Part shown: positions 1,847-57,202 of the stretch, piece by piece
Layout: the number at the start of each line of letters is the position of its first letter
Position numbering within the stretch: position 1 is the stretch's first letter
Source: Pocillopora verrucosa
Lineage: Eukaryota > Cnidaria > Anthozoa > Scleractinia > Pocilloporidae
Assembly: GCF_036669915.1 (NCBI RefSeq)
Contig: NC_089319.1
Location: 18,845,885-18,909,884 of the forward strand
DNA length: 64,000 bases
Reading direction: 5' to 3'
Notes under the pieces: generated by a model
What the model was told of the DNA's origin: nothing
Databases searched by the model: none
The model's input: only the letters and a program-made list of their open reading frames with translations
Position numbers and translations under genes: made by a program

Positions 1847-4800
1847 ATCCTATCATTTCCCTTGGGCAGGAAAAAGATGAGTGACGTGTTTTTCCTTTTC
1901 TTTTTTTTTCCGTACTTTTCTCACACATTTAACTAGGCTAGAAGAAAAGAAAAACTTTTCCAGACACAATCACATGCTCAAAAACGGTTTCCGGACATAC
2001 TAGGGTTTTCAGTATTGTCATAAGCTCCTGTTATTGTAAGAAGTCTTGTAAGTAAGAGAAACAAACACTTGATTTCTTCAGTTTCGTTTTCGGTGCACAT
2101 AATAAAAAAAACCAATGTGTTTTCTAATAAAGCTCGATAGCATACCAAAGAATGCGAACGTACGCAATGGAATCTTCACACTGTCGAGCTGAGAACATTT
2201 GAACCGCGCCCTATTTTTGGCCGCGCCCCAGATGAACTGATATGAACTTACACGACATTAGATAATTTTCTGCCAAAGTACCGGCTCGAATGCGTGTTTA
2301 TCATATCAAAAACATCCCTTTGTTGTAGGATAGTTGCGATTTTTAAAAATTTTATACTTTAAATCCCAGATCATCATATGATTGTTCTTAACGTGTGCAT
2401 CATATGAAATGAACGCCTCGGCAGGATTTATGCCTGTTTTGGTAGCATTGGCTTCAAACATTTGGCAGCGCATCTGGGAACGAATCGGAAATCTATAATG
2501 ACTTTAAAGACGTTTCAATTCCGTTTAAATCTAAGATATTTCTGTAGTTGCCAGAGGTAACGATCAGAGGTCCTTTCTTATGCAAATTATATTTAGTCAC
2601 GAGGCATCATGTGATTCATTCGGCTTCAAGAAGCTTTCGAATCAACCGCCTGTTTTTCTCACACGTTAAGGTTTGTTCTAAAATTTGAAATCAAATCGTG
2701 GGTCCACTTATCACAAGAGTACCTCAAGTTATTTACAAGACAAGGTTTCTTCCTTGAATGCAGTAAGTTTGCAAATGTTGTCTTATTACACTTTAGAAGG
2801 GGCAATTGTCGAAACACGCATTTGGTGATGCCGGTTTAATTCGAACTAAGCTAAGACCTTGAATGACTGATATTTTCATGCCAGTAAAATTACAAATAGG
2901 TTGACTTGTGTGTTGAAAATAGTTAACCGATGTTAAAAGCGTAGACACATTATAAGTGAACTTTACTGCGCGAATTGGATCCAACAAGATCCACTTGAAC
3001 TCCTTGTTTCTCTTGATGCGCATTTTTTCGGTCATTTCCCCTAACTCGAAATCCCCTTCGTCTTTAAGTGTTTTTTGTTTTCCTTGTTGGTTCAATTATA
3101 CATGAAAATCCTCAGTAAATGCGTACATTCCTAGAAGAAAAGAACTTTGAGGTAAAAATTTCCCCGCAACTTTTCAGTTTCGTTTTTACAACGGAAGTCT
3201 CGGTACGCTAAACGGCAAGTGTTATTTCCATTTCATTTTATGAAAAATATGAAACAGTTGGCGTCTATTTAGTCGTAGCTTGCCTCCTGTCGTTCATATG
3301 TAAAAGTATCATTAAGCATACAGTATTATGAATTCTTTCCCTGAAAATTTTTCTCTTGAAAATCAGAAAACAGTATGTAAATGCGTCAATAGCGTGATAA
3401 AGCAAATATTTCCAAGAAACGTTAGCGCTCTGCCTGCTAATTTATATGTAAATTGCTTAGATCGCAAAGCAAGAGCAAAAGTTACGGCTGATATTGTTTT
3501 TATAAATGGTGAGCGTATCTGAATGTAAGTCGTCTCAATCATCTCAAAAGTTGTTAAACTAACAATGCTACATTTGGTGTCTTCCAAGGCTTCGGTTGAA
3601 AACAAGGGAGAAATTTTTATTTCGTCTCGACTGAAAATATCGTTTCGATTTAGAACGCATATTTGTAGACATTCAGTTGGACTTGTTTCGATTTTTAAAA
3701 ATTTAATACTTTAAATCCCAGATCATCATATGATTGTTCTTAACGTGTGCATCATATGAAATGAACGCCTCGGCAGGATTTATGCCTGTTTTGGTAGCAT
3801 TGGCTTCAAACATTTGGCAGCGCATCTGGGAACGAATCGGAAATCTATAATGACGTTAAAGACGTTTCAATTCCGTTTAAATCTAAGATATTTCTGTAGT
3901 TGCCAGAGGTAACGATCAGAGGTCCTTTCTTATGCAAATTATATTTAGTCACGAGGCATCATGTAATTCATTCGGCTTCAAGAAGCTTTCGAATCAACCG
4001 CCTGTTTTTCTCACACGTTAAGGTTTGTTCTAAAATTTGAAATCAAATCGTGGGTCCACTTATCACAAGAGTACCTCAAGTTATTTACAAGACAAGGTTT
4101 CTTCCTTGAATGCAGTAAGTTTGCAAATGTTGTCTTATTACACTTTAGAAGGGGCAATTGTCGAAACACGCATTTGGTGATGCCGGTTTAATTCGAACTA
4201 AGCTAAGACCTTGAATGACTGATATTTTTATGCCAGTAAAATTACAAATAGGTTGACTTGTGTGTTGAAAATAGTTAACCGATGTTAAAAGCGTAGACAC
4301 ATTATAAGTGAACTTTGCTGCGCGAATTGGATCCAACAAGATCCACTCGAACTCCTTGTTTCTCTTGATGCGCATTTTTTCGGTCATTTCCCCTAACTCG
4401 AAATCCCCTTCGTCTTTAAGCGTTTTTTGTTTTCCTTGTTGGTTCAATTATACATGAAAATCCTCAGTTAATGCGTACATTCCTAGAAGAAAAGAACTTT
4501 GAGGTAAAAATTTCCCCGCAACTTTTCAGTTTCGTTTTTACAACGGAAGTCTCGGTACGCTAAACGGCAGGTGTTATTTCCATTTCATTTTATGAAAAAT
4601 ATGAAACAGTTGGCGTCTATTTATTCGTAGCTTGCCTCCTGTCGTTCATATGTAAAAGTATCATTAAGCATACAGTATTATGAATTATTTCCCTAAAAAT
4701 TCGTCTTCCAACGCTTCGGTTGAAAACCAGGGAGAAATTTTTATTTCGTCTCGACTGAAAATCTCGTTTCGATTTAGAACGCATATTTGTAGACATTCAG

Positions 4801-5287
4801 TTGGACTTGTTTATATGGTGCGCTCTAGGGAGCTTAACTCGCCGATACGCACCTCCTCTGGTTTTCCATGTCTTTTACATTGGGAACTGAAATGGTTCTC
4901 TTAGTGGCTAGATCATTTGAAATGAAATCAGGAAAGGCGCACTTCTCCATTAGACAAGAAAAAGCACGTCTGAAAATTCCCCGATTTCAGTTTCGTTTTC
5001 CCTGTTTGGGGCGGAAATGGCCGGTAGACTAGATTATTATCTTCATTTCCATGTCGAATCTTCCAAGAAATGTGAAGCAGTCCGCGCTGATTTTCCACAA
5101 TGTTAGCCTCCACTTGTCTGCTTCCAAAATCATGATAATAATAAAGTCTATAAATTATTATTTGCAAGTTCTCTCCAAGAAAGTTTCAGACTTGAAATTT
5201 AAACCTCTAAGAAACCGAGAATGATTCGTAAATTGTATGCAAGTTTAAAACTAGAAAAGATGATATTCTAATATGCATATTTTCTAA
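1764..5287. repeat. Higher-order tandem repeat unit 1 (sub-copies A and B)
   Basis: Unit 1 runs from the MITE at 1764 to just before its duplicate at about 5288. It contains sub-copy A (about 2336-3687) and sub-copy B (about 3688-5287), offset by about 1352 bp and nearly identical over about 1 kb. A carries about 230 bp (about 3352-3580) that B lacks. Offset to unit 2 is about 3521 bp. Landmarks are the AGGAAAAAGAT, GGTTTCCGGACATACT and ATGAACGCCTCGGCAGG segments. A 100-codon minus-strand open frame (2793-3095 and 4145-4447) is kept in the copies, but I do not call it a gene. Confidence 0.85.
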
Positions 5288-7994
5288 TATTAATCTCGTA
5301 CCCGGATCCTACCTTAAACTATAACTGAAAATTGCAACCGCTTAACCGGGGAAGGTCTGGGTACGAGACTATTATCCTATCATGGGCAGGAAAAAGATAA
5401 ATAACGTGTTCTTTTTTTTTCTTTTTTTTCTTTTGTATTTTCCCCACATATGTAACTAAGTTAGAAGAAAAGGAAAACTTTTCCAGACACACTCACATGC
5501 TCAAAAACGGTTTCCGGACATACTGGGGTTTTCAGTATTGTCATAAGCTCCTGTTATTGTAATAAGTCTTGTAAGGAAGAGAAACAAACACTTGATTTCT
5601 TCAGTTTCGTTTTCGGCGCACAGAATAAAAAAACCAATGTGTTTTCTAATAATGCTCGATAGCATATCAAAGAATGTGACCACATGCAATGGAATCTTTA
5701 CACTGTCGAGCTGAGAACATTTGAACCACGCCCTATTTTGGCCACGCCCCAGATGAACCGACATGAACTTACTCGATATTAAATAATTTCCTGCCACGGT
5801 AGCGGCTCGAATGTGTGTTTCTCATCTCAAAAACTTCCCTTTGTTGCAGGATCGTTTCGATGTTTAAAAATCTAATACTTTAAAGGCCAGATCATTAAAT
5901 GCTTGTTCTTAACGTGTGCATCATATAAAATGAACGCCTCGGCAGGATTTATGCCTGTTTTGGTAGCAATGGCTTCAAACATTTGGCAGCGCATCTGGGA
6001 ACGAATCGGAAATCTATAATGACGTTAAAGACGTTTCAATTCCGTTTAAATCTAAGATATTTCTGTAGTTGCCAGAGGTAACGATCAGAGGTCCTTTCTT
6101 ATGCAAATTATATTTAGTCACGAGGCATCATGTGATTCATTCGGCTTCAAGAAGCTTTCGAATCAACCGCCTGTTTTTCTCACACGTTAAGGTTTGTTCT
6201 AAAACTTGAAATCAAATCGTGGGTCCACTTATCACAAGAGTACCTCGAGTTATTTACAAGACAAGGTTTCTTAGCATATCAAAGAATGTGACCACATGCA
6301 ATGGAATCTTTACACTGTCGAGCTGAGAGCCTTTTGAACCGCGTCCTATTTTTGGCCATGCCCCAGATGAACTGATATGAACTCACACGACATTAGATAA
6401 TTTTCTGCCAAAGTACCGGCTCGAATGCGTGTTTATCATTCAAAAACATCCGTTTGTTGTAGAATAGTTGCGATTTTTAAAAATTTAATACTTTAAATCC
6501 CAGATCATCATATGATTGTTCTTAACGTGTGCATCATATGAAATGAACGCCTCGGCAGGATTTATGCCTGTTTTGGTAGCATTGGCTTCAAACATTTGGC
6601 AGCGCATCTGGGAACGAATCGGAAATCTATAATGACGTTAAAGACGTTTCAATTCCGTTTAAATCTAAGATATTTCTGTAGTTGCCAGAGGTAACGATCA
6701 GAGGTCCTTTCTTATGCAAATTATATTTAGTCACGAGGCATCATGTGATTCATTCGGCTTCAAGAAGCTTTCGAATCAACCGCCTGTTTTTCTCACACGT
6801 TAAGGTTTGTTCTAAAATTTGAAATCAAATCGTGGGTCCACTTATCACAAGAGTACCTCAAGTTATTTACAAGACAAGGTTTCTTCCTTGAATGCAGTAA
6901 GTTTGCAAATGTTGTCTTATTACACTTTAGAAGGGGCAATTGTCGAAACACGCATTTGGTGATGCCGGTTTAATTCGAACTAAGCTAAGACCTTGAATGA
7001 CTGATATTTTTATGCCAGTAAAATTACAAATAGGTTGACTTGTGTGTTGAAAATAGTTAACCGATGTTAAAAGCGTAGACACATTATAAGTGAACTTTGC
7101 TGCGCGAATTGGATCCAACAAGATCCACTCGAACTCCTTGTTTCTCTTGATGCGCATTTTTTCGGTCATTTCCCCTAACTCGAAATCCCCTTCGTCTTTA
7201 AGCGTTTTTTGTTTTCCTTGTTGGTTCAATTATACATGAAAATCCTCAGTTAATGCGTACATTCCTAGAAGAAAAGAACTTTGAGGTAAAAATTTCCCCG
7301 CAACTTTTCAGTTTCGTTTTTACAACGGAAGTCTCGGTACGCTAAACGGCAGGTGTTATTTCCATTTCATTTTATGAAAAATATGATACAGTTGGCGTCT
7401 ATTTAGTCGTAGCTTGCCTCCTGTCGTTCATATGTAAAAGTATCATTAAGCATACAGTATTATGAATTATTTCCCTGAAAATTCGTCTTCCAACGCTTCG
7501 GTTGAAAACCAGGGAGAAATTTTTATTTCGTCTCGACTGAAAATCTCGTTTCGATTTAGAACGCATATTTGTAGACATTCAGTTGGACTTGTTTATATGG
7601 TGCGCTCTAGGGAGCTTAACTCGCCGATACGCACCTCCTCTGGTTTTCCATGTCTTTTACATTGGGAACTGAAATGGTTCTCTTAGTGGCTAGATCATTT
7701 GAAATGAAATCAGGAAAGGCGCACTTCTCCATTAGACAAGAAAAAGCACGTCTGAAAATTCCCCGATTTCAGTTTCGTTTTCCCTGTTTGGGGCGGAAAT
7801 GGCCGGTAGACTGGATTATTATCTTCATTTCCATGTCGAATCTTCCAAGAAATGTGAAGCAGTCCGCGCTGATTTTCCACAATGTTAGCCTCCACTTGTC
7901 TGCTTCCAAAATAATAATAAAGTTTATAAATTTGCAAGTTCTCTCCAAGAAAGTTTCAGACTTGAAATTTAAACTCCTAAGAAACCGAGAATGA
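5288..7994. repeat. Higher-order tandem repeat unit 2 (sub-copies C and D)
   Basis: This unit duplicates unit 1 with an offset of about 3521 bp. Sub-copy C (about 5855-6271) is truncated: its sequence jumps at 6271/6272 into the stretch that normally precedes a sub-copy (the AGCATATCAAAGAATG segment). Sub-copy D (about 6470-7994) is full length and almost identical to B, so the array grew by recent unequal exchange. The 100-codon minus-strand frame recurs at 6927-7229. No promoter or splice context supports a gene. Confidence 0.85.
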
Positions 7995-9829: not shown

Positions 9830-10880
9830 TCAATTGAAGGCAACGGTTTATGCATTAGTGTTTACTACAAACCTACAGATTCACATAGTTTCTTGTTGCA
9901 TTTATCTTCGCATCGATAACACGTCAAGAATTCCATACCTTTTTCACAGTTCTCAGACTTCGTCGTTAAGTAGTAACGACTCTGATTTTCCGGAAAAATC
10001 AGAGGCAATGTCCCAGTTTTTCGATAAACACGGCTATCCTATTTCTGTCGTTCAAGCGAGCCACCACCACGCCTAACAAATTTAACGACAGTCAGCACTA
10101 GAAACGACTTAGTAGGAAAATACTGATCGCATTCCATTCAGTCTCACATTTCACCCTCACAACCATGTAGTTGAATCTATCATGCCTAAAAACTTTACAT
10201 TACTACAAAACGATTCAGAGACTGGTACTATCTTTTCGCAACCTCCACTAATTCAGTTCGAACGCGACAAAAACATAGGCAACTTTTTGGTCAGAAGTTC
10301 ATTTCAAACCAATGACCAACCTGGAACTTTTAAATGCGCTCACTCACGATGCAAACCAAAAGACCAAAGAGATCCATTGGGACTAATGATCACTTCACGA
10401 GCATCTCTGCCAGTGTCATCTACTGCATAACTTGCATTTATTGTCAAAAGTCATACATTGGTGAAACAGTAAGACGACTAGGTGACCGATTCCGAGAACA
10501 CCATCAAGATAAAAAAAAAAACGACAAAGACGCATCCAAACCAGTCGCCAGACTCTTAAATCTCCCTAACCATTCTAAACAGCATATGGCAGTTTGCGGC
10601 TTTTGCCTACATCTAGGCAGTTCGGGAAGTCGCAAAACTCTAGTACAAAAATTTATATTTCAAATCGGCACTCTTAATCCCCACAGTATCAACGAGCGCT
10701 TTTCATTCAACTAATTTATTCCTGTTTTCTCGTCACCATCTTCCCACCAATAGGGTAACTCCATTTTCTGCATATAAACACACACACACACAACCCACAA
10801 TTCCTCCAGGGCTAACGCTCGAAACGTCAGTTTTTAAACTCTTAAAGGTGGCCAATCTACGTTATCAACTAAGTCGATAA
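9830..10880 (+). mobile_element. Penelope-like retroelement remnant with GIY-YIG endonuclease
   Basis: Decayed 3' part of a retroelement of the Penelope type that ends in a GIY-YIG endonuclease. The stretch 9834-10076 resembles the region between reverse transcriptase and endonuclease (QFFDKHGYP). The stretch 10182-10370 continues it (TGTIFSQPPL, GNFLVRSSFQ), and 10334-10714 carries the GIY-YIG core: CITCIYCQKSYIGET, then RRLGDRFREH. The frames are broken by stops, a frameshift near 10360 and loss of a cysteine-bearing segment. The reverse transcriptase is absent, which fits the usual 5' truncation. After the stop, a CA microsatellite and a GGGCTAACGCTCGAAACGTC tail follow, typical of these elements. 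It is not expected to be active. Confidence 0.8.
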
Positions 10881-10963
10881 TACAAAATTATCTTACGTTA
10901 GGTACGAATTTTTGCGCGCAATTAATCCTCGTCTCCTTTTTCATAAAACTTAGGTCCTGGAAT

Positions 10964-12004
10964 ATGGATAACGATGTCCATGTGTATAACAGCTATGGCA
11001 AAAAATACGAAGTACCCAGAAGACGCTTGAAGTTATTTGCCGAGCTTCTGATCGGAGATCATATCGCATTCCATCGACATTGCGGTTCCTACTGGCATCA
11101 TGCAATAATCGAAGAGATCCACTCGGAGACAGGCACACTCGACATCATTGAGTATTCCAATACAGTTGAAGGGTTTTGGAACGACAACTACGGCTCAGAA
11201 GACTCATCAAACTCCTTTTCACTACCTATCGCAAGGGTGATGAGGAGAAGTTGGAGACCAAATTTCCAAGGAGACCATGTTTACTTGCTGGTACACACAG
11301 ATTGTTCAGATCCTGCCATTGTGATTTATAGAGCAAGGAGTAAGCTCGGGAATGCGAACTACAGCCCCATCGAAAATAATTGTGAACACTTTGCCATGTG
11401 GTGCAAAACGGGTAAACAATCTTCCGACCAGATTAAAAAAGCTTTGCTAATGATGAAAAATGAATTATTTGGTGGAGCAGTGAAAAACGGAGTCAAAGAG
11501 GCAACAGAGGAAGTGGCAACCGAGGCTATGGTCAAAGCGGCAGCCGAGGCTATATTCAAAATGACAAATGAGGCAGCGAAAACCGGAGGCAAGAGAGTGG
11601 CAAGCCGAAGTCTTGCACAGACTGGAGAATATTCCCTTAAAACTGGAGTTGAAGAAGCTGTAAAGAAAACTACTTCAAAGGCAGGAAAAGGAGTCTTGAA
11701 AACTAATTCTGCAGCCTTAGGACTAGCGTGTGGAGCCGTGTGTGAGGGAATCAGCGTCTTATACGACATCCGGAACATGTACAGAGACTTGCTTAAAGGA
11801 CAAATAAGCAAGAAAGAATTTCGCAAAGTCGCCAAGATGAGAGCCGTGACCGGTGCAGGAAATCTTGGAGGATCTACCATAGGAATGGCCATTGGACAAG
11901 CTGTCATACCCGTTCCGTTAGTTGGTGGTCTGGTGGGAAGTGTAACAGGAGGACTTGCAGGATCATTTTTGGCCAACATGGGTGCATATGCTGCTTTCGA
12001 GTGA
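10964..12004 (+). CDS. LRAT-domain (H-rev107-like) protein, single exon
   Basis: Predicted 346-residue protein of the NlpC/P60-like LRAT superfamily, thiol acyltransferases or phospholipases acting on membrane lipids. The domain spans about residues 28-150. It opens with GDHIAFHR (31-38), has the catalytic-histidine region YWHHAII (43-49) and ends with NNCEHFAMWC (138-147), where C140 is the expected nucleophile. Residues 160-260 are rich in Ala, Lys, Glu and Thr and look helical. Residues about 290-346 are glycine-rich and hydrophobic (VPLVGGLVGSVTGG), probably a membrane-insertion segment. The start is the first ATG of the frame and an upstream 5' UTR exon is possible. The substrate cannot be inferred. 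Duplicated blocks lie on either side, and a homologous flank without the gene lies at 985-1560. Confidence 0.85.
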   Translation: MDNDVHVYNSYGKKYEVPRRRLKLFAELLIGDHIAFHRHCGSYWHHAIIEEIHSETGTLDIIEYSNTVEGFWNDNYGSEDSSNSFSLPIARVMRRSWRPNFQGDHVYLLVHTDCSDPAIVIYRARSKLGNANYSPIENNCEHFAMWCKTGKQSSDQIKKALLMMKNELFGGAVKNGVKEATEEVATEAMVKAAAEAIFKMTNEAAKTGGKRVASRSLAQTGEYSLKTGVEEAVKKTTSKAGKGVLKTNSAALGLACGAVCEGISVLYDIRNMYRDLLKGQISKKEFRKVAKMRAVTGAGNLGGSTIGMAIGQAVIPVPLVGGLVGSVTGGLAGSFLANMGAYAAFE

Positions 12005-33100: not shown

Positions 33101-36100
33101 TAAAAGAATTAAAGAACTTATGTTAAATCAAAGTTAAATTGGTTCCATGACCAGCATTTTACATTTACCATGTTCCATATTTCATTTCAGAGCTCAACAA
33201 GTGAAGAGCAGTATCATATAGTAAGTCCTCTAAAAATTCTTATTCCATTATGATAATTAGGGAGAGGAACATACTGAGATCATAATGATATTTCAATGTA
33301 TTGCAAGCAAACTTGACAATTTCTAGAAAAAATATTGTGCTTTATGTTGCCGTGGGAAGGGGGGGATGGGCATTCAATTTACTTGTGTTTGTGAGACCAT
33401 ACTGATCTCTTATTTCACCATCACTGTGGTTTTCTAGGTCCCATTAGAAGATGCCATGGGAAAACTGATTGTGTATATGCGTGCAGTTCCTTACAAGAGG
33501 AGTGAAGTCTCTGGTGACTGCTGTGAGATGTACTCATTTAATGATGGAGCAGCACAAGATGCCATTACAGGGCATCCAAGAGGTGTGATCTGAATTTTAA
33601 TTCTCTCATCTTGTTGCCATACATCTCCTTGTAAATTAGTCAAGAGAATTTGGTGTTACATCAGGAAAACATCACCCAGCTGATATCTTTAAGTTTGTTT
33701 TTTTCTTGTTGTCAGTTTGTTACTGGTAAGTATTGGATCAATATGGTCATGAGAAGTTACATGTTGATCCTTTTTGTAATTTTTTTGTTTTCTTTAAAAT
33801 ACATAAGACATGTCTCTTCTGTAACTTTTCCTGTCTTACTTAGCCCTCTAACTAGTCTTAAAATTAACAGGGGACATAGCTTTTTTTCCTAGAAATTCTG
33901 AAAGGAGAAATTGGATATTTTATATGATGATGGTGGTTTTTAAAGCTGAAATTCTTTGAGCAAAGATGGAGGCCCACATGAAAAAATAGAGACTGAAATA
34001 AATTCTGAGTGCTTTTCATAGTAGTGGAACCTTAGAACTTATTGCATCCCACAAATTTAAGATCTCTTACAAAATAATATGACATATATATATATATTGC
34101 ATACACATAATGTATACACATTTGCACACTCTCACATGACTGTTCCATGTAATTTCAGACAGATGCTGAGTACTGCAATGTTTAGTTTCATGAAGATCTA
34201 ATGCTTAATTTGTGTTCTTTAGATATTTTGTATTTGGCTAACAAGCACATTGTCAGAACATACCCCAAAGGTTCAAGAGTGGACTCGTCAAACTATAATC
34301 CCCAGACCATGTGGAATGCTGGCATTCAAATGGTGGCAATTAATTTTCAAAAACCAGGTGTGCTATAAAGAAGAAATTGCCAAAGAAGCTCTACAGTCTT
34401 ATTATATTTAACCACAAATATCTCAAACTTAAAATTATCATAACCTCAAATCACTCATCTCTGCTAGCCTTATACCTTTTTCTGTCTCTCAGAAGCCCTG
34501 ATCAGTTTTTGATCATTTTAATTGTTGTCATAAAGTTTGAGATACTATACAAGATCATTTAGTAAATATGCTGTAAAAAATCTTTTCATTTTCAAGAACA
34601 CCTCTTATGAAATAGTTATTCTGATCATTATCCTATAATCTATCTCAGCCAGTAAATTTTCATTAACAGTTAATTCACAAAAGACAAAAAAGAAGGAGTT
34701 TTTAAAGGGATTTAATTCGGTTTCCATCTTTGATCTGATGATCTTCATTCTTTGTCTTGATTATTTCATGTTCCTTCAGGTGTCAGAGAGGAAATTAGTT
34801 GTTTTTTTTTTAAAGTATTGATTCCTATTGATCATTGGTGTTATTTTGCAGATTTTAGCATGCATCTAAACCAAGGAAAGTTCAGGAAGAATGGAGGATG
34901 TGGTTATATTTTAAAACCTGATTCTTTGAGAGACAGAGGTAAGGAATTTGTACTGGTGAACACTGTTGTCTTTATTATCTCATGGTGGCAACAATAACTG
35001 TGGAACACTTGTTCCTGTTTTATCTAGAATTAACCTTTAACACCCACATGCCCCTGCCCTTGTGAAACTGATTTCAATTGACTGTTAATTTTTTGCAGAG
35101 AAGTCAAATTATCACCCAATGATTAAGGAAAGTCCTAAGAATGGAAAATCATGTTACTTCACCATTGAGGTTTGCTATTCTCTTGATTGAATTAATTTAA
35201 AGGGAAGGGGAATAAAATTCTTCAAAAAAGTTTGCAGGCCATCCCTTGCTGTGTTGGTTTGTCTTATTCTCCCTCTTGCTTTCCAGCCTATTCTGGGTTT
35301 TTCTCCCCTTAAATTTCTGTGTTGGGTGCCTGGTCCTATTCTGTGGGACCTCTTGGTTATGGGTTTGCCTGTCATGGGTGTGGCACCCAGTCAAGGTGCT
35401 GATTGGACTTACACAATGGTCAAATGTCTGCGCATGTGGAAACGTTGTGTTGGCCAATTTTTTTGCTGTCAGGTTGGCAGAATTAAGTTCTCTCACAGGA
35501 GTTACAAAGAAAAAAACCTTAGGTTCTACATGATGGTGTTTTAAAAGCATAAAACATTTTTTATAATGCTTAAACCAAAATGGCAAATCAATTGGATACT
35601 CGTACTTGAATAAGCTTTACTTAATATTCACTTTTGTCGGTTAGGTATTTGATATTGTGCTTTCCTTAATTGTAAACGTTATATCCATAAGAAATTTTGA
35701 AATTAAACGGCTTTTTTTTAGGTGTTATCAGGGCAATATTTGCACTTGGATCAGGACTCTTATCTTCCAATTCGTGTTGATATTGAGATAGTTGGTGTCC
35801 CACAGGATTGTGCATCGCTCAGCACAGAGGTTAGCTTTGAAATTTACCACACAAAAAATTGTAAAAGAAGTGATTAGCGGATTGCATGTCAACAGTCCAA
35901 ATAGTGACACTATAAGGCCAATTTGATGTAGTTTTTGGTTGTCCATATATAGTAGTGGCACTGTTCTCAGGTGTTGTACAATGTTTGGTGTTCCTGCTGT
36001 CATCAATGGGCGTAGTCCTCTTTTCTTAACTGGTGACGACGCATTTCTTTATTTCTTCATTAGCCAACTATGGACAAGCTGAATCCCCAGTTTGAGAATG

Positions 36101-47910: not shown

Positions 47911-49690
47911 TTTTATGGTTTTTGTAAAATCGTTGGGTTCGATATTGACGGGACCGTGCACCTGTATGAGGACATTTCACTCTGTGTACGTGATTATAGC
48001 ATGCGAAAGTGTACCAGTTTTTAAAAAATTTTTGGTTACTGCTGCTGATGCTTTTGCGCCCACGAGTCAGTTGAGCTTTAACAAGGAGGGATTGCACATC
48101 TGGTTCATGATGGATGGTAAGTAACTGGGATGTGAAATGAAAAAAGCACGGCTAGTTGGGCATAATAATTCCTGAAATACATACATCCCTCACAAGTCTC
48201 CAGGCTGTTCTCGAAGTAAACAGAGCTACCCTACAGAGACTGAGGCCAAGGAGAGTCCTTAATGCAACACAGTGGAGCAAGCTGTACCCTACCTTAGCCA
48301 CATCAGTGTCATTAGCCAACTTTGATATCACCCTTATGTTTATTCTTATTTGTGGTTTGAATCCTCCTGCAACCACAGGATCTTAGGACACACCTCCTCC
48401 AACAACAGATCTGATTAGCAAGGCAGACATGGTCCACCTGGAATGTATCAGAAATTATATTTATGCTTATGCAGAGAGGGATTCTTTGTCTGATTTTCAG
48501 TTTTCCTCTCACTGGCAGGAGATACATGCAACTGGTAAGATCAGGAGGAAAGAGTTATGAAGTTGCAATCAATAACCTTGAAACTGAGTCTATAGATCCT
48601 GAGTTGGAGGCACATTACGAAAAGATTCTTGAAGAATGGAAGAAAGATGAAGACTACAGAAAAGGCATGCTGGATAAAATTATAAGGGAAGAAGGAAATG
48701 TTGGCAAGAAAGTTGATGATTTAGCAGTTGTCCCAAACAAGGGTTGGTGATTTCTTGTTTGATCAAGGATTATTAAAATACAAACCTTTTTACTATGCAA
48801 GTTAAAATTAAAGCCTCTTGTTTTTGCTGACTTCATGTCAGCCTACTGTGCTAGCAAATTTGTGAGAGGTGTGATGACTATGTGGTTATGAATTGGCAAA
48901 GCTAGTGAGGGATAGGGAGAGACCAGTAACCTCTAATTTGCTTCTTTATTGCAGCTCTTTTTCATAGTTATGTAACTTTCTTTTTATTATTTTGATAACT
49001 TTCTCAGGAAATGTAACCATAAAAATCCTGATTGAAGTAGACAGAGTTACCCTTAAAGATACAAAACAGTGGGACCCTGCAGAACAGGAGAAAGTAGAGC
49101 AAATATTGGTATCTGAGATGTCCAATGTTTAAGACAAGAGCAGATAAGATTGCTACCAAGGATATGCCCAGTCACCTACAAAATTATCTCAAAGGCGTAC
49201 TTGACTTACCAGTTGTGACAGTGACGTCAGGAAGTTTGATAATTATGGTCAAGTGTCACACATTAGAAATTCTTCAATGTTTGTGGAAAGAGTATTGTTC
49301 TGGGCCCAGTTGTTCAAAGGCCGATTAGCGCTAACCCAGGGTTAAATTTTAATCTGGGTTTCCTTATTCCTTTACTCAAAAGCCTTTTTGGGATAATTTT
49401 CAGTGTTCTATTTGAAGTGTCAAATAGTCATACTCTAGACTAAAAGAATTTGACTGAATTTCCTTTTACAGCTTTTAGACCTGAAATCAGATTTCACACC
49501 AACCCTGGGTTATCTTAACCCAGCTTTGAACAACCTGGCCTTGGTCATCTGAATGCAGTGTCAGAGAAGTATTTTATGACCAATGACATTCAAGACAGAT
49601 TTGATGTGGATTCTATCACATTGGAGACAACTATTTTGAAAGAGGAATACCTGGCTTGTAGATTGTCTCTAATGGATTTAGCAGGTGACT
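47911..49690 (+). pseudogene. Broken HEPN/DZIP3-like plus TRADD-N-like gene
   Basis: Relic of a cnidarian defence-type gene. The stretch 48200-48380 encodes RVLNATQWSKLYP, then SVSLANFDITLMFIL and CGLNPPATTG, the signature of the DZIP3-like HEPN region common in corals. A TAG follows at about 48387. The frame then gives HLECIRNYIYAYAERDS and, after a frameshift near 48540, SYEVAINNLETESIDPELE and EEWKKDED. At 49010-49100 a QWDPAEQEKVEQILVSEM segment runs into a stop or frameshift. The TRADD-N-like domain begins at 49209 (SGSLIIMVKCHTLE) and is cut at 49303 by a MITE, resuming at 49541 (HLNAVSEKYF to EEYLACRLSLMDL). At least two stops or frameshifts plus the insertion make a working product unlikely. 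Domain names come from memory of the families. Confidence 0.7.
49303..49540. mobile_element. MITE inserted inside the TRADD-N-like exon
   Basis: Inverted ends GGCCCAGTTGTTCAAAGGC and GCTTTGAACAACCTGGCC enclose about 238 bp with inner inverted TAACCCAGGGTTAAA/TTAACCCAG-type repeats. It splits YCSG from HLNAV of the domain. A second copy of the family, in the opposite orientation, lies at 56227-56468. No clear target duplication could be read. Confidence 0.8.
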
Positions 49691-49926
49691 TGAGTCAAGA
49701 CACACATATTCATAAAGCTGTTGACAGTTTATAACATGACAAAGCTTGATTAAGGTACTATGTAATCTTCTGGAAATGGTGTAGTCTCGGAATGCAGTCA
49801 TTGTACCTCTTCTCATACCACTAATGACTGCATGTATATTGGTATGTTATATTTCCTCTAATCAGATTTTGAATTGGAAACTGCACCCAGATTTATGTTA
49901 TTTTTTTGAGAAGTGACTGTGAAATA
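49691..49926. other. Upstream flank of the heat-shock-type promoter
   Basis: No coding content after the relic domain. It contains an isolated TTCTGGAA pair (two inverted HSE units) at about 49768-49775. Confidence 0.5.
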
Positions 49927-50111
49927 GAAGTTTCTAGAAATTTCTAGAATGCTTAGTCATGGTGACATGGACACTAAATTTTGCTGATGTCATACCATGG
50001 AACTTTCTGGAACATCCTCTTAACTTTTGTACTTATGATGTAGTTCTCCCAGAATATTTGTTCCGTAGGCTTCCGGAATGTATTTGAATACGTTGTATTA
50101 AATGTATATAA
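49927..50111 (+). promoter_or_regulatory. Heat-shock-type promoter: HSE cluster plus TATA box
   Basis: At 49927-49949 the sequence GAAgtTTCtaGAAatTTCtaGAA is a perfect array of five alternating HSF1 units with exact 5-bp spacing. A perfect three-unit element, GAActTTCtgGAA, follows at 50000-50012. A two-unit TTCcgGAA lies at 50071-50078, 26 bp before a TATATAA box at 50105-50111. This is the architecture of inducible hsp promoters. Predicted start is about 50136-50142. Confidence 0.8.
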
Positions 50112-50136
50112 GGACTCGGCCATCAAGGAGTTGCAG

Positions 50137-50241
50137 TTATAGTACATAGACCAACTGTCTTGAAACCTATATTGACAGAGAGCTATTGTGGATTAATTGG
50201 AAAATAATTGCGCATTCTCGGAACATTTGGAAGCATCAGTG
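50137..50241 (+). other. Predicted non-coding first exon from the heat-shock promoter
   Basis: From the expected start about 30 bp after the TATA box to a good donor (CAGTG|GTGAGC) at 50241/50242. No long frame begins within it. The nearest downstream intact coding exon outside the transposon opens after the acceptor at 55831, which would make a 5.6-kb first intron. This is inferred and unsupported by transcripts. Confidence 0.45.
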
Positions 50242-50631
50242 GTGAGCTAAGCTAATAGTCTGTAGTGGGCTTATGTAAGTTTTTTAAGGATTTAAATTGT
50301 TAGTATTGCTTATGTCTGAGTCGCTTCTTTGTAAGACTTAACTGAGGCCGTGCCGTTAAATAAAATCCGTAAAAACTCGTGTATAAACCGTATATTTTTG
50401 CCAAAATTCTGGGCTCAAATCGTGGTTGCAGCTTATATACGAGACAAATTGCTTTCAGCGGCAGTAAACTGGCTTGTCTTTACCATAAATAGCATTAAAG
50501 CTGTCTTCAACCGATCACTTCACCGATCTCTTCACCACGCTATTCGCCTTTGTCACGGCCCGCCATCTTGGATTACGTCATTGAATATTGTACATGAGGT
50601 CGAGGCCACGCGTGGTAAGTTCACAAACAAA

Positions 50632-52436
50632 ATGGCGACTAGTAGCGATAGCGTTGAACTCGAATTTTGGCACAAAAATATAACAAAAATACCCAAAGTT
50701 ACAAACTCTTTTGTTGAGGATTTTGCTGAGAAGAACCTACCGATCAAAGCCACTGTAACAAGAGGATATAAATTCTTTCACGAAGAATATATTCACGATA
50801 TTGAAGGTGAGCCTCGTTGACCTCGTGGTAGCTTTCTTTGTTTGACTGTCTTTCCAATATTTTGTTTCTGTGCTCAGTGTTTTGAGTTTTAACTCTTTTT
50901 TCTCGGTTTTTAACAGTAAAACTTTGCAAGGAAGAGGATTCAGGAGTAGTGGCTCGGGCTAAATGCTTCAGAAGTATGAAAAAGAACGAAGATCCTCACA
51001 AGTTGTCTGTTGTGTTCGAGAGCTCCTCTATTGAGGCTAGCATCAACAAGTATATGTGTAGTTGTGCTGCCGGACAAGGTCTTTGCCATCATGTTCTTGG
51101 ATTGCTCTATACTCTTGCCCATTTCCAGCTATTAGGCTTAAAAAGTGTCCCGCCAATGGTTTCTAAAACATCAAAGGCACAGGTAAAATTTAATAATAAT
51201 AATAATAGATTTGATGATAAACAATAAGAAAAAACAGTCATTAATGTATAGAGATTTGACTGTATCTTACCAATATTTTTCCTTAAAAACTCCTTTTAAT
51301 CACACTGCTGTTTTTAAACATAACACAATAAGCAATTTTGAATTCATATAGTATATTTGTATATTATTTTTTTGCAGAGATGGCATATCCCCAGTCGTAA
51401 AGAGGGCATTAAAGCAAGGCCAGTGACAGATTTGATTATACAAAAGTCAAAGCCAAAAGATAAATTGCATGAACCTAAAAAGAAGAGAAAGGTGTGTGGT
51501 GTGGCAAGCACGATCTACAAACCCTTCCAGCAATCATTAAGTAGCCTTGACTTGACTAGTGTGCTGTCGCCACAGTTTGAAAATCTCAACAATCAACCTG
51601 GATTTATGAGAATATGGGAAGATGAACAAAGTGAGCCTCCAATTTTAGTAGACTCGGCCTTTGGAAAGGTGCCAAAAGGCTGTGTCATAAGCTATCAACA
51701 GCCATTGAAAGTTAAGAGCAATATTAACATACAGCTACCTGCATTCAACTTTCCATCTTTAAGCTATCCAGATACAGTGCTCAATGAAAAACAAGACCTT
51801 TTCTTCAGCTCCCTTGCAATATCAGGTCAACAGTCTATTGACTTTGAAATGGAGACAAGGGAACAGTCAACTACAACAGCATGGCATGAACTAAGGAAGT
51901 TTAGGCTTACAGCTTCAAATTTCAAAGATATATGCTCAAGAAGAAAAGACCATGAAATCCTTTCTACGCGTTTACTAAAGGGAAAAGTAATCCAAACTGC
52001 AGCCATGAAATATGGGATACAAAATGAGGGGGTAGCTGCTGATATGTACAAAACACAGTTTGGCAGAGACACTCACCTAGTAGGTTTTCTTATAAACCCA
52101 TGTCTCCCACACCTAGGCTGTAGCCCAGACAGAAGAGTGTTTGACGACACTGAACAACATCCATGGGGCCTGATAGAAATAAAGTGCTCTCCAGCAAGTC
52201 ATCTGGATAACCTTCAGTATTTAAAGTTTAATGAACGAAATGGGTCATATTCATTGAAGAAGACACACAAGTATTATTATCAAGTTATGGGATGCCTTGG
52301 TTTAACAGGAAGTCAGTGGTGCGATTTCTTTGTTTACTGCAAGGACGAATTTCACTGTGAACGAGTATATTTTGATGAACTTCTCTTTTCTGAAATGCTG
52401 GACAAACTGAATTTATTTTTTTTGATTATCACCTGA
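50632..52436 (+). CDS. ISL2EU second protein: SWIM zinc finger plus YqaJ-type exonuclease
   Basis: Exons 50632-50806, 50917-51182 and 51378-52436 join in phase to 499 residues. The start ATGGCGACTAG lies inside the element, so the earlier ATG outside it was not used. A SWIM motif at about residues 105-125 reads CSCAAGQGLCHHVLGLLY (CxC...CxH), a DNA- or protein-binding zinc finger. A basic linker KKKRK-type segment follows. Residues 310-490 form a YqaJ/lambda-exonuclease-like PD-(D/E)xK nuclease: AWHELRKFRLTASNF, YGIQNEGVAAD, GCSPDRR, then GLIEIKCSP and YYYQVMGCLGLTG. The catalytic D (SPDR), E and K (EIK) are present. The frame is uninterrupted. Its role in transposition is unknown; end processing is a common guess. 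Confidence 0.88.
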
Positions 52437-53391
52437 ATACATGTGTTCAATAATTTATTGTATGTCTCTTATACAAAATAACTTCGTGCCTAAGTAACAA
52501 GCTAATTGTGTGTGACAAAGTTTGGTGGGAAGTGGAGTAAAGACATTTGAATCAGCATTCTTAAAATGTTAAAATGTAACAAGTCAAACCTAATTAGACT
52601 CAGAACTTGTTCTAGTAATTATCATTACACAGCTGTTTGCAGAAATTATTGCCACAACTTTAAAAACATTGGGTTCATGATTGGTAATTTAATAGTTTTT
52701 GTATTTTTTCCAAAAATACAATACTTATGATAATTCAGTTTCATTTAAGCCTATATGTCTGTAATATATTGTAAGCGCCATAATTTTTACAAACAGCTGT
52801 ACATATTTCATTGTTTATCATGCATTCAAATACTGTGACTAAGTTGGGTGTATTTCAAGCCATTTAATAGTTTTTTACTGTTATTAAACAGAACATTCTG
52901 TACAAACATGATAAATAAAAATACATGAATGACTTCAACAGGTTTTGTATTTAAACCCCAAAAGGGCATTTTATAATATTTGGCAATAATGAAATTTGTG
53001 AATAAATGTAAAGTTATTAAATTCATAATTTTTTTTTCCAAAAAGCTAGTTTGAAAGCTTGCATTGAATCTGTAAAACAAAAATAGTACTAACAATATAA
53101 TTTTTACTGATTTTACTGTTTATTTTAATGCCTAACCAATATGCCATGTACATACGAAAAGGGTGCCCCTAGGGGATAGGGCCACCCTACTATTCACCCT
53201 TCCACATCACATGTTAACAGATGGCATAGTTCTTACCTAGGTTGGACCTAATACGTAGTGTACCCTCACTCAATGTCAACTAACTCTTAGTTGTTAAAAG
53301 TTGTTAGTACTATTTGTATTACAGATCCTTACATACTTTACTTTAAATGATGCTTACTCTTCCATCTATTTTACAACAATTGTATACATAT

Positions 53392-55112
53392 TTAGATATA
53401 TTGCTTTTCATGCAACAAAGGCCCCTGGAAATTGGTAATAAGACATGCCACTGTCCATATTTGATTAATGCTGCCAGCTACTGTAAGAGGTATAACTTTA
53501 TCAAAATAGTGAAACTCTTTCACCCTTCTTATGGCCCTTTCCACATGGACTCTTAAATTATGTATCTGTTTACTGGTTGAAAGTTCTTTCTTTGAAAATT
53601 GACCCTTACTTGACAAAAAGGCAGGCATTGCTACTCCACAACCTATTGGCTTTAATAGATCCTCTATAGTAAATCCTTTATCAGCCATTATTTGATCACC
53701 TGGCTCAAGTAAATTCAACAAACCTGATTGCTTAACAAGCTCCTTGTCAGAAATACTTCCTTCAAAAGAGAACTTACATGAATAATTTCCCCAGATGGAG
53801 ATATTACAACATTGCCTTTGTAAGTTGTGTGGCTCTTATATGATGAATAGCAATTGCTATTCAAAACCATACTAGATGGTGCTTGTACCTTGATCTCTGA
53901 GGCATCAATAATACCACGGCATTTAGGATATAACAATTTAAAACACTTAGGCATATGTTTGTCAATTTTTGCCCGAGAGGGCCATATAGGAATGGTTCCC
54001 AAAACAAAATAGAGAAAGTTAACCCAAGAAATAAAAACTCTACTCACAGTTGAAATAGAAATATCAAATTCACTGGCTAGTTTCTCATTAAAAGTACCCA
54101 GCCTCAGCTTAGTAATGCATAAATAAAACTGATCAAATAAGCTAAGTTTGCATGTCTTGAGAGTGTCTCTCATGTTACTTATATCTTTCCCACTTTTTGC
54201 TCGTGCTCTCTGTACTTGGGACCATGAAAACATACTTTCAGCTGTGGGTCTAAGGGCATTGAAGGTACTCACAAAAATAGCAAATGACGAAAAGCCAGTA
54301 TGGAATCTAACGCGTTTGTCTGACATCCCTTTCAGTTGTCTGTAAAAAGATTGTTTTGAAAGCAGCTGTTCTAATTGTTCGATACGAGCTTGCGCTGCCT
54401 CAAGTAGCTCTTCTACAGGCTTTTCGGGTTCAGTAAATAAATAATCATGTAGGTTGACAGTAGGTGTTATGATTGTGGTGTCAGTAGTTACGGTGGAGTC
54501 CTCCATGTGGCTGCTAGTATCGATGACATTTTCGTCTACGCTTGAATCTTCGATGGGCCCAATTTCGACTGTGGGAATGTAGAAAATAACATGTTTAGAA
54601 ATATTTAGGGCGGGCCTAAAGTACGATTTCATAAAAAATAAATACCTGTAGAGGAGATTGGCTGTATATTATCCACGACATCAATCTCGGTTGTGTTAGT
54701 ACGTGTTGTGCATTCGCGTTTCGTTGGTGACTTTCGTTTCTTTGATAAAGTTGTCCATTCAAAAACGGATGGTACAGCACCATTAACGAGTACACTTTTT
54801 CCTGTTAGCGTTTTTTTTATATCTGTGGGTTTAAAATGATCAGAGCAAACTCTTGTACTGTTGGTTATCTGAAAGATATCGGAAAAAATATAAGGTTTGC
54901 TATATAAACAACGCTGAAACGACGCTAAACTGAACTATGATATATAAAAGGCCATTTACCTTGAAGGACCGGCCGACATCACGCTTAATTTTTATAATCC
55001 ACTGTCTTCTTAAGTCTTTGTCTTTCGGGAATTGATGAAAGGTTATATTAGACTGCACTTTTGATCTATTGTTATTGCACTTAGGAACACAACAGTGATC
55101 TTTGTTCCGCAT
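53392..55112 (-). CDS. ISL2EU transposase: THAP plus DDE, one frameshift
   Basis: Exons 54960-55112, 54646-54868 and 53392-54568. Residues 1-90 are a THAP zinc finger: CCVPKCNNN, FHQFPKD, W, then VCSDHF and AVPSVFEW, with the C2CH residues visible. After a helical segment (EELLEAAQARIEQLEQLL), a helix-turn-helix-like region (LASEFDISISTVSRVFISW) precedes the DDE_4-type nuclease. The first Asp is in GIIDASEIKVQ, the second in MADKGFTIEDLL and the Glu in HVERAIRRVKEF. All three catalytic acids are kept, but a missing base in a short A/T run at about 53764-53767 shifts the frame between SHTTYKGN... and LLEPGD. The copy is therefore probably inactive unless the error is in the sequence. Start chosen at MRNKD just before the zinc finger. 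Confidence 0.85.
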
Positions 55113-55214
55113 GATCGCTCGAGTGTTCAGTGTGTCAAGAACCACGCGTGACCTCGTTTTCATGCCAAAAAGCATTACGTCATTTTCAAGATGGCGATAC
55201 CGTGACAAAGGCGA

Positions 55215-55831
55215 ATTAGGGAGAACTCGCAAGGCAAATTGCCAACCGTTCCGTTGCCTTTTATTTCTTGTACTTGTACGGCGTGTTTGGCCATGTGGTT
55301 GTTAAGATCTTGTTTAGCAACAAGTTTTTCTCCGATCGATGGCTTACATATGTATTTACATACTGCGATGTCTCCCGAGGAAGGAAGTAAACAGTTTCAT
55401 GTGCTTGGCCCAGACTTCACTCTGCAAATGAGCGAGGTTACTTAGCGGACAATTTTACCTGCGTTTTAGTGTCATCGGTTTCGCTAAATATTGTGGGCAC
55501 AAATGATGAAAATAACCGTTGTTAGTCTCAAGTATTAAGGAAATCGACTTAAGATCAACATTTAAAAGGTACTGTAAGAGTCGATGAACTTATTAAAGTC
55601 CCTACTAATACACAGCATAAGATTTCGGTAGGTTCACACGTAAGACTATGCAAACAACTTTTTTGCCAGAGGTCCTTTTTCAAGGTTTTTTTTTCTTTTT
55701 TTCTTTCATGCTTGAGTTTTGGGCGTGTGGCTTATCACGAGTGTATCTTAAACACGAGCTTTTATGGTTCTTGGGTTCAAAGGTGTGTGGTACTCTTTGT
55801 GCTGAAACATTTTTTTGCGTGTGTTTTGTAG
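55215..55831 (+). other. Region between the transposon and the TRADD-N-like coding exon
   Basis: No recognisable coding or repeat content. It would be intron under the proposed model. It ends in a TTTTTTTGCGTGTGTTTTGTAG acceptor-like tract. Confidence 0.45.
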
Positions 55832-55839
55832 AGGAGGAA

Positions 55840-57202
55840 ATGGCATCACTCGAAGAAGATATGGTTTTGGACGGAGAGGAAAATGTGGGTTCTGAAGAGT
55901 TATTGGATAAAGATATAGCAGATGTTTCTGTTGAGGGACAATCATCAAGTGGTGAAGGAGCGCAAAGTGGGAGGAGTTTGAATATCACAGTGAAGTGCCA
56001 AACCTTGGAAGGTCTCGAAAAACTTTGGCAAGACTATAGTTCAGGTCATCTCAATAGTGTAGCGGAGGAACTTCTTGTGACAGATGATATCAAGAAAAAA
56101 CTAGGTGTGGAATCTATAAAGTTGAAAACAGTGATTACAGAGGAGTCTTACCTGGCATGCAAACGGTACCTCTTAAACAAGTTAGGTGAGTTCTTAGAAT
56201 ACCTCTTTGCATCATACTGAAACTCAGGGCTGGGTTGTTCAAAACTAAGTTAAGATAACCTGGGGTTAGTGTGAAATCTGACCTCAGGTATGAAAGCTTT
56301 AAAAGAATATTCAGTATAATTCTTTTTGTCTACAATGTGATGCTTGGATGCTCCAAAAAGAATAGAGATACTTATCTGCTAAAAGGCTTTTGAAGAAAGA
56401 AATAAAGAAACCCAGGTTAAATCTTAATCCTGGGTTAGCACTAATAGGCCTTCAAACAACTGGGCCCAGGAGTTTAACAGCTTGTTTTGCCTTATTATGA
56501 ATTCTCTTTCTTAATGATCAGCATGATTTTTATTCTTTAATCCCCATGTAAATCACCCTTCTTGGCCTCACTTTGGATTGAGAATTCTATTGTTTTTAAA
56601 CTTGTTGTCGAGACCAGAAGGCTTATTTACAAATAGTTAAAAGCATAGCAAATAAGCCCTTTATTAAAGGGGTATATAATGCGTTCAATGTGACTAGTGT
56701 TTGACATGTATGGTGATAATATTGGCAGCATGGCTACAAATTGAGTTGCACTGGAAATTGGTTTTTGGTTATGGGTAGGTGTAGTTAAGGAAGTAAAGGC
56801 ATATAAAATATAAGTAAATGTGTTGTAGTTCATCAAGTTCAAAATTCTACTGCCTTCAATTTGATGATCTGTGTTAAGAATGAATGTATGTCTTCTGAGT
56901 GCACTGAACATCTTGCTATTGGCATGTATTGTCAATTCTCCCTAAATTTAAACTTGAAGTTGATGAAAAAAGATTAGTTGGTTATTACTCAAAACAATGT
57001 GTAAGCACCCTTCTAACTGATACATTGACATTAATATTTTATAGATGCCAGCTCTGATCAGTCCTCATCATCCACACCAAGCTTAGAAAACATGCAAGAA
57101 GCCAGTTCAGGTCAGCAGCTGATGCAGTTGTTGGGAGAGCCCAGTCCACAAAGTTTGCCCAGCCAGGGCAGTGTAAATCAAGATGAAGAAAAAATGAACT
57201 AA
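55840..57202 (+). CDS. Small TRADD-N-like domain protein
   Basis: Exons 55840-56185 and 57045-57202 join in phase (G|AT) to 167 residues. The first 45 are acidic and Ser-rich. Residues 45-115 form a compact domain reading NITVKCQTLEGLEKLW, SGHLNSVAEELLVTDDIKKKLG, then VKLKT-type VITEESYLACKRYL. It resembles the TRADD N-terminal-like fold I associate with coral NLR/HEPN proteins and closely resembles the relic domain at 49209-49687. The tail (residues 116-167) is Ser/Gln-rich and probably disordered. ATG at 55840 follows a splice acceptor (AG at 55830-55831), so a 5' UTR exon lies upstream. An AATAAA lies at 57370-57375. Function is unknown; the family suggests immune or death signalling. Upstream coding exons cannot be excluded. 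Confidence 0.65.
56227..56468. mobile_element. MITE of the 49303-49540 family, inverted, in the TRADD-N-like intron
   Basis: Ends GGGCTGGGTTGTTCAAAAC and AGGCCTTCAAACAACTGGGCCC are inverted repeats matching the other copy in reverse orientation, including the inner TAACCTGGGGTTAGTG and ATCCTGGGTTAGC arms. Confidence 0.75.

Follow-up and report, generated by a model that had tools for sequence, protein, structure and literature searches.

In the 64-kb stretch of Pocillopora verrucosa DNA analyzed here (hereafter, the window), a block of heat shock elements (HSEs) and the TATA box that follows it are very probably the promoter of a solo LTR left by an old Ty3/gypsy retrotransposon with a Gmr1-like gene order, which carried an HSF-type promoter in its U3 region. 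Aligned with 32 other independent copies, the block reads best as one decayed copy of this LTR (U3-R-U5; 49896-50421, plus strand). The reading is directly supported by a dispersed repeat family, its ends, its target-site duplications (TSDs), its linkage to pol and the conservation of its HSEs. The heat-shock-type promoter without an adjacent Hsp gene that a sequence-only reading had reported stands, while its interpretation as the promoter of a heat-inducible gene of this region is replaced: it corresponds to the U3/TATA portion of an LTR present in dispersed copies and would therefore have arrived by retrotransposition.

The HSE block of the window copy comprises three clusters on the plus strand. 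HSE 1 (49926-49950) is, as the sequence-only reading had described, a single run of five perfect alternating nGAAn/nTTCn units with exact spacing; its last four units are those of the family, and just one of 30 aligned copies retains the first (GAA at 49927). The second perfect three-unit element of that reading is present as HSE 2 (49999-50013), with units kept in 28/32, 22/31 and 24/32 aligned copies. Its third pair (TTC at 50071 and GAA at 50076) is also there and belongs to a larger cluster, HSE 3 (50070-50089), which has four units in other copies; in the window copy one unit is broken and the GAA at 50086 is intact. The TATA box, TATATAAG (50105-50112, plus strand), was found 26 bp past the third pair, where it had been placed. 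From the TATA spacing alone, the transcription start, i.e. the start of R, is expected at 50130-50140. A GTAAGT at 50275-50280 inside R is a possible splice donor (16-20 of 29-30 aligned copies retain its triplets), and an AATAAA at 50359-50364 is a possible LTR polyadenylation signal (14-19 of 29-30 retain its triplets), both on the plus strand. The window copy begins with TGTTA at 49896 and then a run of T, and its alignment begins at 49902; its own 3′ end and TSD are unrecognizable, and the 3′ boundary at ~50421 was set by alignment. A further perfect three-unit HSE run occurs in the window at 34875-34889.

No Hsp gene was found beside the promoter. Downstream lie a YqaJ/THAP transposon and a TRADD-like_N gene (the domain scan took 10 of the 50 stop-to-stop frames listed for the window), and the genome's 36 Hsp70 matches all lie on contigs other than the window's. 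As a control, the upstream regions of Hsp70 genes showed two perfect three-unit HSEs at one gene (L090) and none at another (L091).

Searches in the 353-Mb assembly that contains the window (52 contigs) revealed that the block is dispersed. The query 49900-50300 gave 57 matches, with the window itself and split pieces counted, from the best 40 of 136 candidates, and the longer matches were 65-76% identical; in a second copy search, the best 40 of 433 first-look candidates were scored. The repeat unit is ~480-520 bp long, with TG..CA ends and 4-bp TSDs. Flanks were compared at 30 loci from the first search and 30 from the second and proved unrelated between copies except in segmental duplicates, with short pieces shared by some. 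After 27 segmental duplicates or repeated places, judged by eye, had been removed from these 60 oriented loci, 33 independent copies were retained; for the count of HSE runs, the addition of L066, L067, L070 and L076 gave 37. At G000:C6:2.03-2.36 Mb, we also observed an array of similar units, each with an LTR copy (L045, L051, L056-L058 and L071-L075).

Well-kept copies start with TGTTATGG and end with CCGTAACA, and both TG..CA ends are recognizable in 21 of the 33 independent copies. Across these 21, 54 of 84 flank bases match as 4-bp TSDs, a value reached in 0 of 20,000 permutations; four of the copies have a perfect TSD, and no such signal appears at 3, 5 or 6 bp in the same set. An internal region with an LTR on each side was not found at any copy. 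The LTR end followed by TGG, with the exact 12-base end demanded, occurred at 13 places versus 8 for the control, and none of the 13 resembled a primer-binding site: three had a perfect 4-bp TSD and common flanks, five lay in one array, two had little or no LTR and three looked like single units.

Another important question is which element this repeat terminates. Directly 5′ of copy L009, AGGGGAAGGG and decayed RNase H-like sequence were recognized by eye; Pfam gave zero matches for four short internal pieces beside this copy, and their identity comes from inspection by eye and from relatives. The internal sequence adjacent to L009 identified eight places, its own counted, and at all eight the LTR repeat, whole or in part, follows related internal sequence. 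A purine tract abuts the LTR at three of them, and the repeat match at L085 and L086 is limited to the R-U5 part. Gene order could be read at C5:14470600-14476332 (L088 and L082), where a protease-like piece, integrase, RT, RNase H and a fragmented LTR repeat follow one another from 5′ to 3′. Pfam identified Integrase_H2C2 (4.7e-15), RT (1.3e-30) and RNase H (3.5e-20) there, together with matches below cut-off to rve (0.035) and the integrase C-terminal domain (7e-4); the DTG-type protease-like piece was seen by eye and has no Pfam match. Integrase upstream of RT was met at this one locus. Another gypsy of the same genome, only distantly related and with a long open frame (C4:28431715), shows the usual order (RT end, RNase H, integrase); the stretch there ended before any LTR. 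The pol pieces match RVT_1, RT_RNaseH_2 and RT_RNaseH, and no copia-type pol was found among them; copia RTs match a different Pfam model. Taken together, the TSDs, the ends and the internal sequence with pol on the 5′ side lead us to read the repeat as an LTR and the window copy as a single decayed one.

The HSEs are a feature of the family as a whole, and their cores are better preserved than the rest of the LTR. A perfect run of at least three units is kept in 33 of the 37 independent copies (the exceptions are L003, L013, L017 and L020), and at five of the eight internal-bearing places (L009 and L081-L084, not L085-L087) the LTR contains such a run. In total, 53 of these runs occur in 18.5 kb of LTR versus 2 in 97 kb of flank; the 33 copies have 47, against a shuffled mean of 0.2 and maximum of 2. 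Column conservation was 0.892 in the HSE cores, compared with 0.809 outside the HSEs (p 5e-7), 0.823 in U3 outside the HSEs (p 1e-4) and 0.802 for the spacer bases within them (p 2e-4). Because HSE-bearing queries were used to find the copies, the sample favors HSEs; in the 12 independent copies obtained from the second query alone, the core effect was weaker (0.893 versus 0.842, p 0.004). A perfect multi-unit HSE is present upstream of the TATA box, and the alignment is best read as showing a family U3 in which three HSE clusters, with four, three and four units, preceded that box.

The family appears old. Mutual identity among the 32 other independent copies averages 69% and is at most 88%; their identity to the window copy averages 62%. 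At least seven RT relatives, the query's place included, were found at ≥58% amino-acid identity among the best 125 of 599 candidates: four are interrupted by stops, two are open but short, and the query itself is an open stretch of 317 aa within a broken element. No young members were seen among the best-scoring candidates. The window copy agrees with the commonest base of the other copies at 31 of 33 HSE core positions, at 8 of 8 TATA positions and at 125 of 162 positions in the rest of U3. Immediately 5′ of the decayed element at L009 lies a 420-aa frame that was named by eye as fucosyltransferase-like (L079:7271-8533, minus strand).

According to the mechanism that we propose, the element would have built an HSF-type promoter into its U3, with three HSE clusters (four, three and four units) and a TATA box, followed by R with the AATAAA and by U5. 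We infer from these motifs that, under heat, trimers of HSF (the host gene is assumed) would bind the clusters and induce transcription from ~50135, and the resulting genomic RNA would serve as a template for reverse transcription. The first client of the promoter would thus have been the element's own RNA. The internal part of the window copy was later lost, probably by LTR-LTR recombination, and a promoter with a five-unit and a three-unit HSE would have been left in place, which might act locally on the TRADD-like_N gene (55832-57202) or on the YqaJ gene (50632-52436).

Could the GAA/TTC units simply have clustered by chance, without regulatory meaning? The sequence-only reading had judged a five-unit match very unlikely by chance. 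Within the window this holds: in 600 windows simulated with Markov models (200 for each of the orders 1, 2 and 3), no run of at least five units occurred, and four-unit runs averaged 0.025, 0 and 0.035 per window at the respective orders. It does not extend to the whole 353-Mb genome, where the five-unit pattern has 26 matches on both strands versus 108 for the reversed control, so that five-unit runs are not in genome-wide excess by this control, which is what a chance origin would have in its favor. Against it, perfect four-unit sites number 348 versus 181 for the reversed control (in and outside LTRs together), and the density of runs in LTR relative to flank and the superior conservation of the core columns, both given above, point the same way; we regard chance clustering as scarcely credible. 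When as many as 2 mismatches are allowed, the 22-base string of HSE 1 has 80 genome places versus 1 for its reversed control, with duplicates counted. The greater abundance of the reversed five-unit control suggests, separately, that another AAG/CTT-rich periodic repeat may exist in the genome. The repeat could also be a non-autonomous, MITE-like DNA element with a 4-bp TSD, as its short inverted ends (TGTTA..TAACA) and the occurrence of the observed copies as single units would allow. However, the TATA box and polyadenylation signal stand in LTR order, and internal retrotransposon sequence lies directly before the repeat at 8/8 places, with the purine tract at the junction in three; on account of this internal sequence a MITE identity was dropped, and we consider it very improbable.

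Two further explanations assign the promoter to its neighbors rather than to the LTR family. The nearer neighbor is a separate DNA transposon (50542-55216) bounded by inverted ends (17 exact bases, longer when mismatches are allowed) with AT on both sides; its frames encode SWIM and YqaJ on the plus strand (YqaJ gene, 50632-52436) and THAP and HTH/DDE_Tnp_4 on the minus strand, a combination known from ISL2EU-type elements. If the HSE block were the promoter of this transposon, the transposon would be the heat-inducible unit, and its plus-strand gene does begin ~500 bp downstream of the TATA box. The positions of the inverted ends, however, leave the block outside, which rules it out as a part of the transposon, and the flanks at other copies of the block are unrelated; such a role is thus hardly to be entertained. 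Beyond the transposon lies the candidate client, a TRADD-like_N gene on the same strand as the LTR copy, which is 5′ of it. Its coding exon (55832-56185, ATG at 55840) has a Pfam E of 2.3e-4, below the curated cut-off, and its last coding exon is at 57045-57202, with splice sites read by eye; the two-exon model encodes a 167-aa protein with a weak domain match. The LTR copy might have been co-opted to give this gene an alternative, heat-inducible promoter and a 5′ exon, with a transcript starting at ~50135, leaving R at the GTAAGT donor at 50275 and splicing across the YqaJ/THAP transposon to an acceptor ending at 55831. Donor and acceptor are both present, and the window copy has the pattern that co-option would leave: its match to the commonest base is 0.81 in U3 (0.72-0.90 in the 33 copies) and 0.62 in the more decayed R-U5, with HSE cores and TATA box kept. 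This contrast is biased, however, since the copy was noticed for its intact HSEs, and it ranks only fourth of 33, with three other copies showing a larger one. Moreover, the polyadenylation signal at 50359 and 4.7 kb of transposon intervene, and the gene may have its own promoter within 55217-55830. Co-option is therefore rated as unlikely.

In plants, LTR elements driven by heat are well established. ONSEN/ATCOPIA78, a Ty1/copia element of Brassicaceae, is described as carrying a high-affinity four-unit HSE ('4P HRE') in its LTR and as heat-activated (PMC5059998, PMC3907296). The decayed solo LTR of the window belongs to a family that resembles ONSEN as an LTR retrotransposon with a multi-unit HSE in the LTR, but ONSEN is a plant Ty1/copia element, whereas this is an animal Ty3/gypsy family with a Gmr1-like order, three clusters and a heat response predicted from sequence. 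Helitrons are DNA transposons without LTRs. In Caenorhabditis, they are reported as mobile DNA that spreads HSEs in animal genomes, the enrichment of HSEs in Helitrons being confined, within the data set described, to Caenorhabditis species (PMC6927752). The mobile spread of HSEs is the same as here, and the difference lies in the type of element; the animal precedent known to us from the literature is thus a DNA transposon, whereas the window family is an LTR element. The Gmr1 group of Ty3/gypsy is described as marked by integrase upstream of RT (PMC8220671), an order also seen here at one locus (L088 and L082), and the likeness is one of gene order alone. The available portions of PMC8220671 and PMC4131045 make no mention of HSEs in Gmr1 LTRs, and PMC13104882, whose main text contains neither 'LTR' nor 'retrotransposon', deals with HSEs in promoters and with transposon-related genes in Nematostella under heat stress. 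A literature search of titles and abstract openings found no HSE-bearing LTR in a cnidarian and no work joining heat shock element, LTR retrotransposon and coral; we claim no wider absence.

If true, an HSF-wired gypsy family in a reef coral would offer a direct, testable route by which warming could mobilize elements, provided that young members exist, and could deliver heat-inducible promoters to the genes around them. Where such genomes show strong HSE clusters close to genes, these may be remnants of LTRs, a caution for the prediction of heat-response genes from motifs. A broader scenario, which we put forward as speculative and rather doubtful, is that a Gmr1-like retrotransposon in a cnidarian lineage took over the heat shock response with a three-cluster HSF promoter, was amplified by heat and seeded hundreds of heat-inducible promoters, some of which, perhaps including the window copy 5′ of an innate-immunity-like TRADD-N gene, rewire the host thermal response.

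A genome search with the TRADD-like_N protein gave 86 matches at E values of 0.01 or lower, with its own exons counted; many relatives are clustered on one contig (G000:C8:3.7-5.9 Mb) and others lie elsewhere. The HSE block was also considered as an ancestral promoter of the TRADD-like_N family and rejected, as the LTR and TRADD-like_N places are, by eye, mostly far apart; besides the window, the two were found near each other at C3:11518888 and C3:11516398, ~2.3 kb apart and on opposite strands. A degenerate relative of the TRADD-like_N exon lies upstream of the LTR block (49233-49680, plus strand), interrupted by a repeat at ~49300-49543. This repeat, ~245 bp long with ends GGCCCAGTTGTTCAAAG, has two copies in opposite orientation (49300-49543 and 56225-56469), of which one splits the degenerate exon and the other directly follows the intact one. 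Elsewhere in the window, a 300-nt direct repeat occurs in four copies, 92-99% identical, at 2306-6766, upstream of an LRAT-domain frame at 10838-12004.
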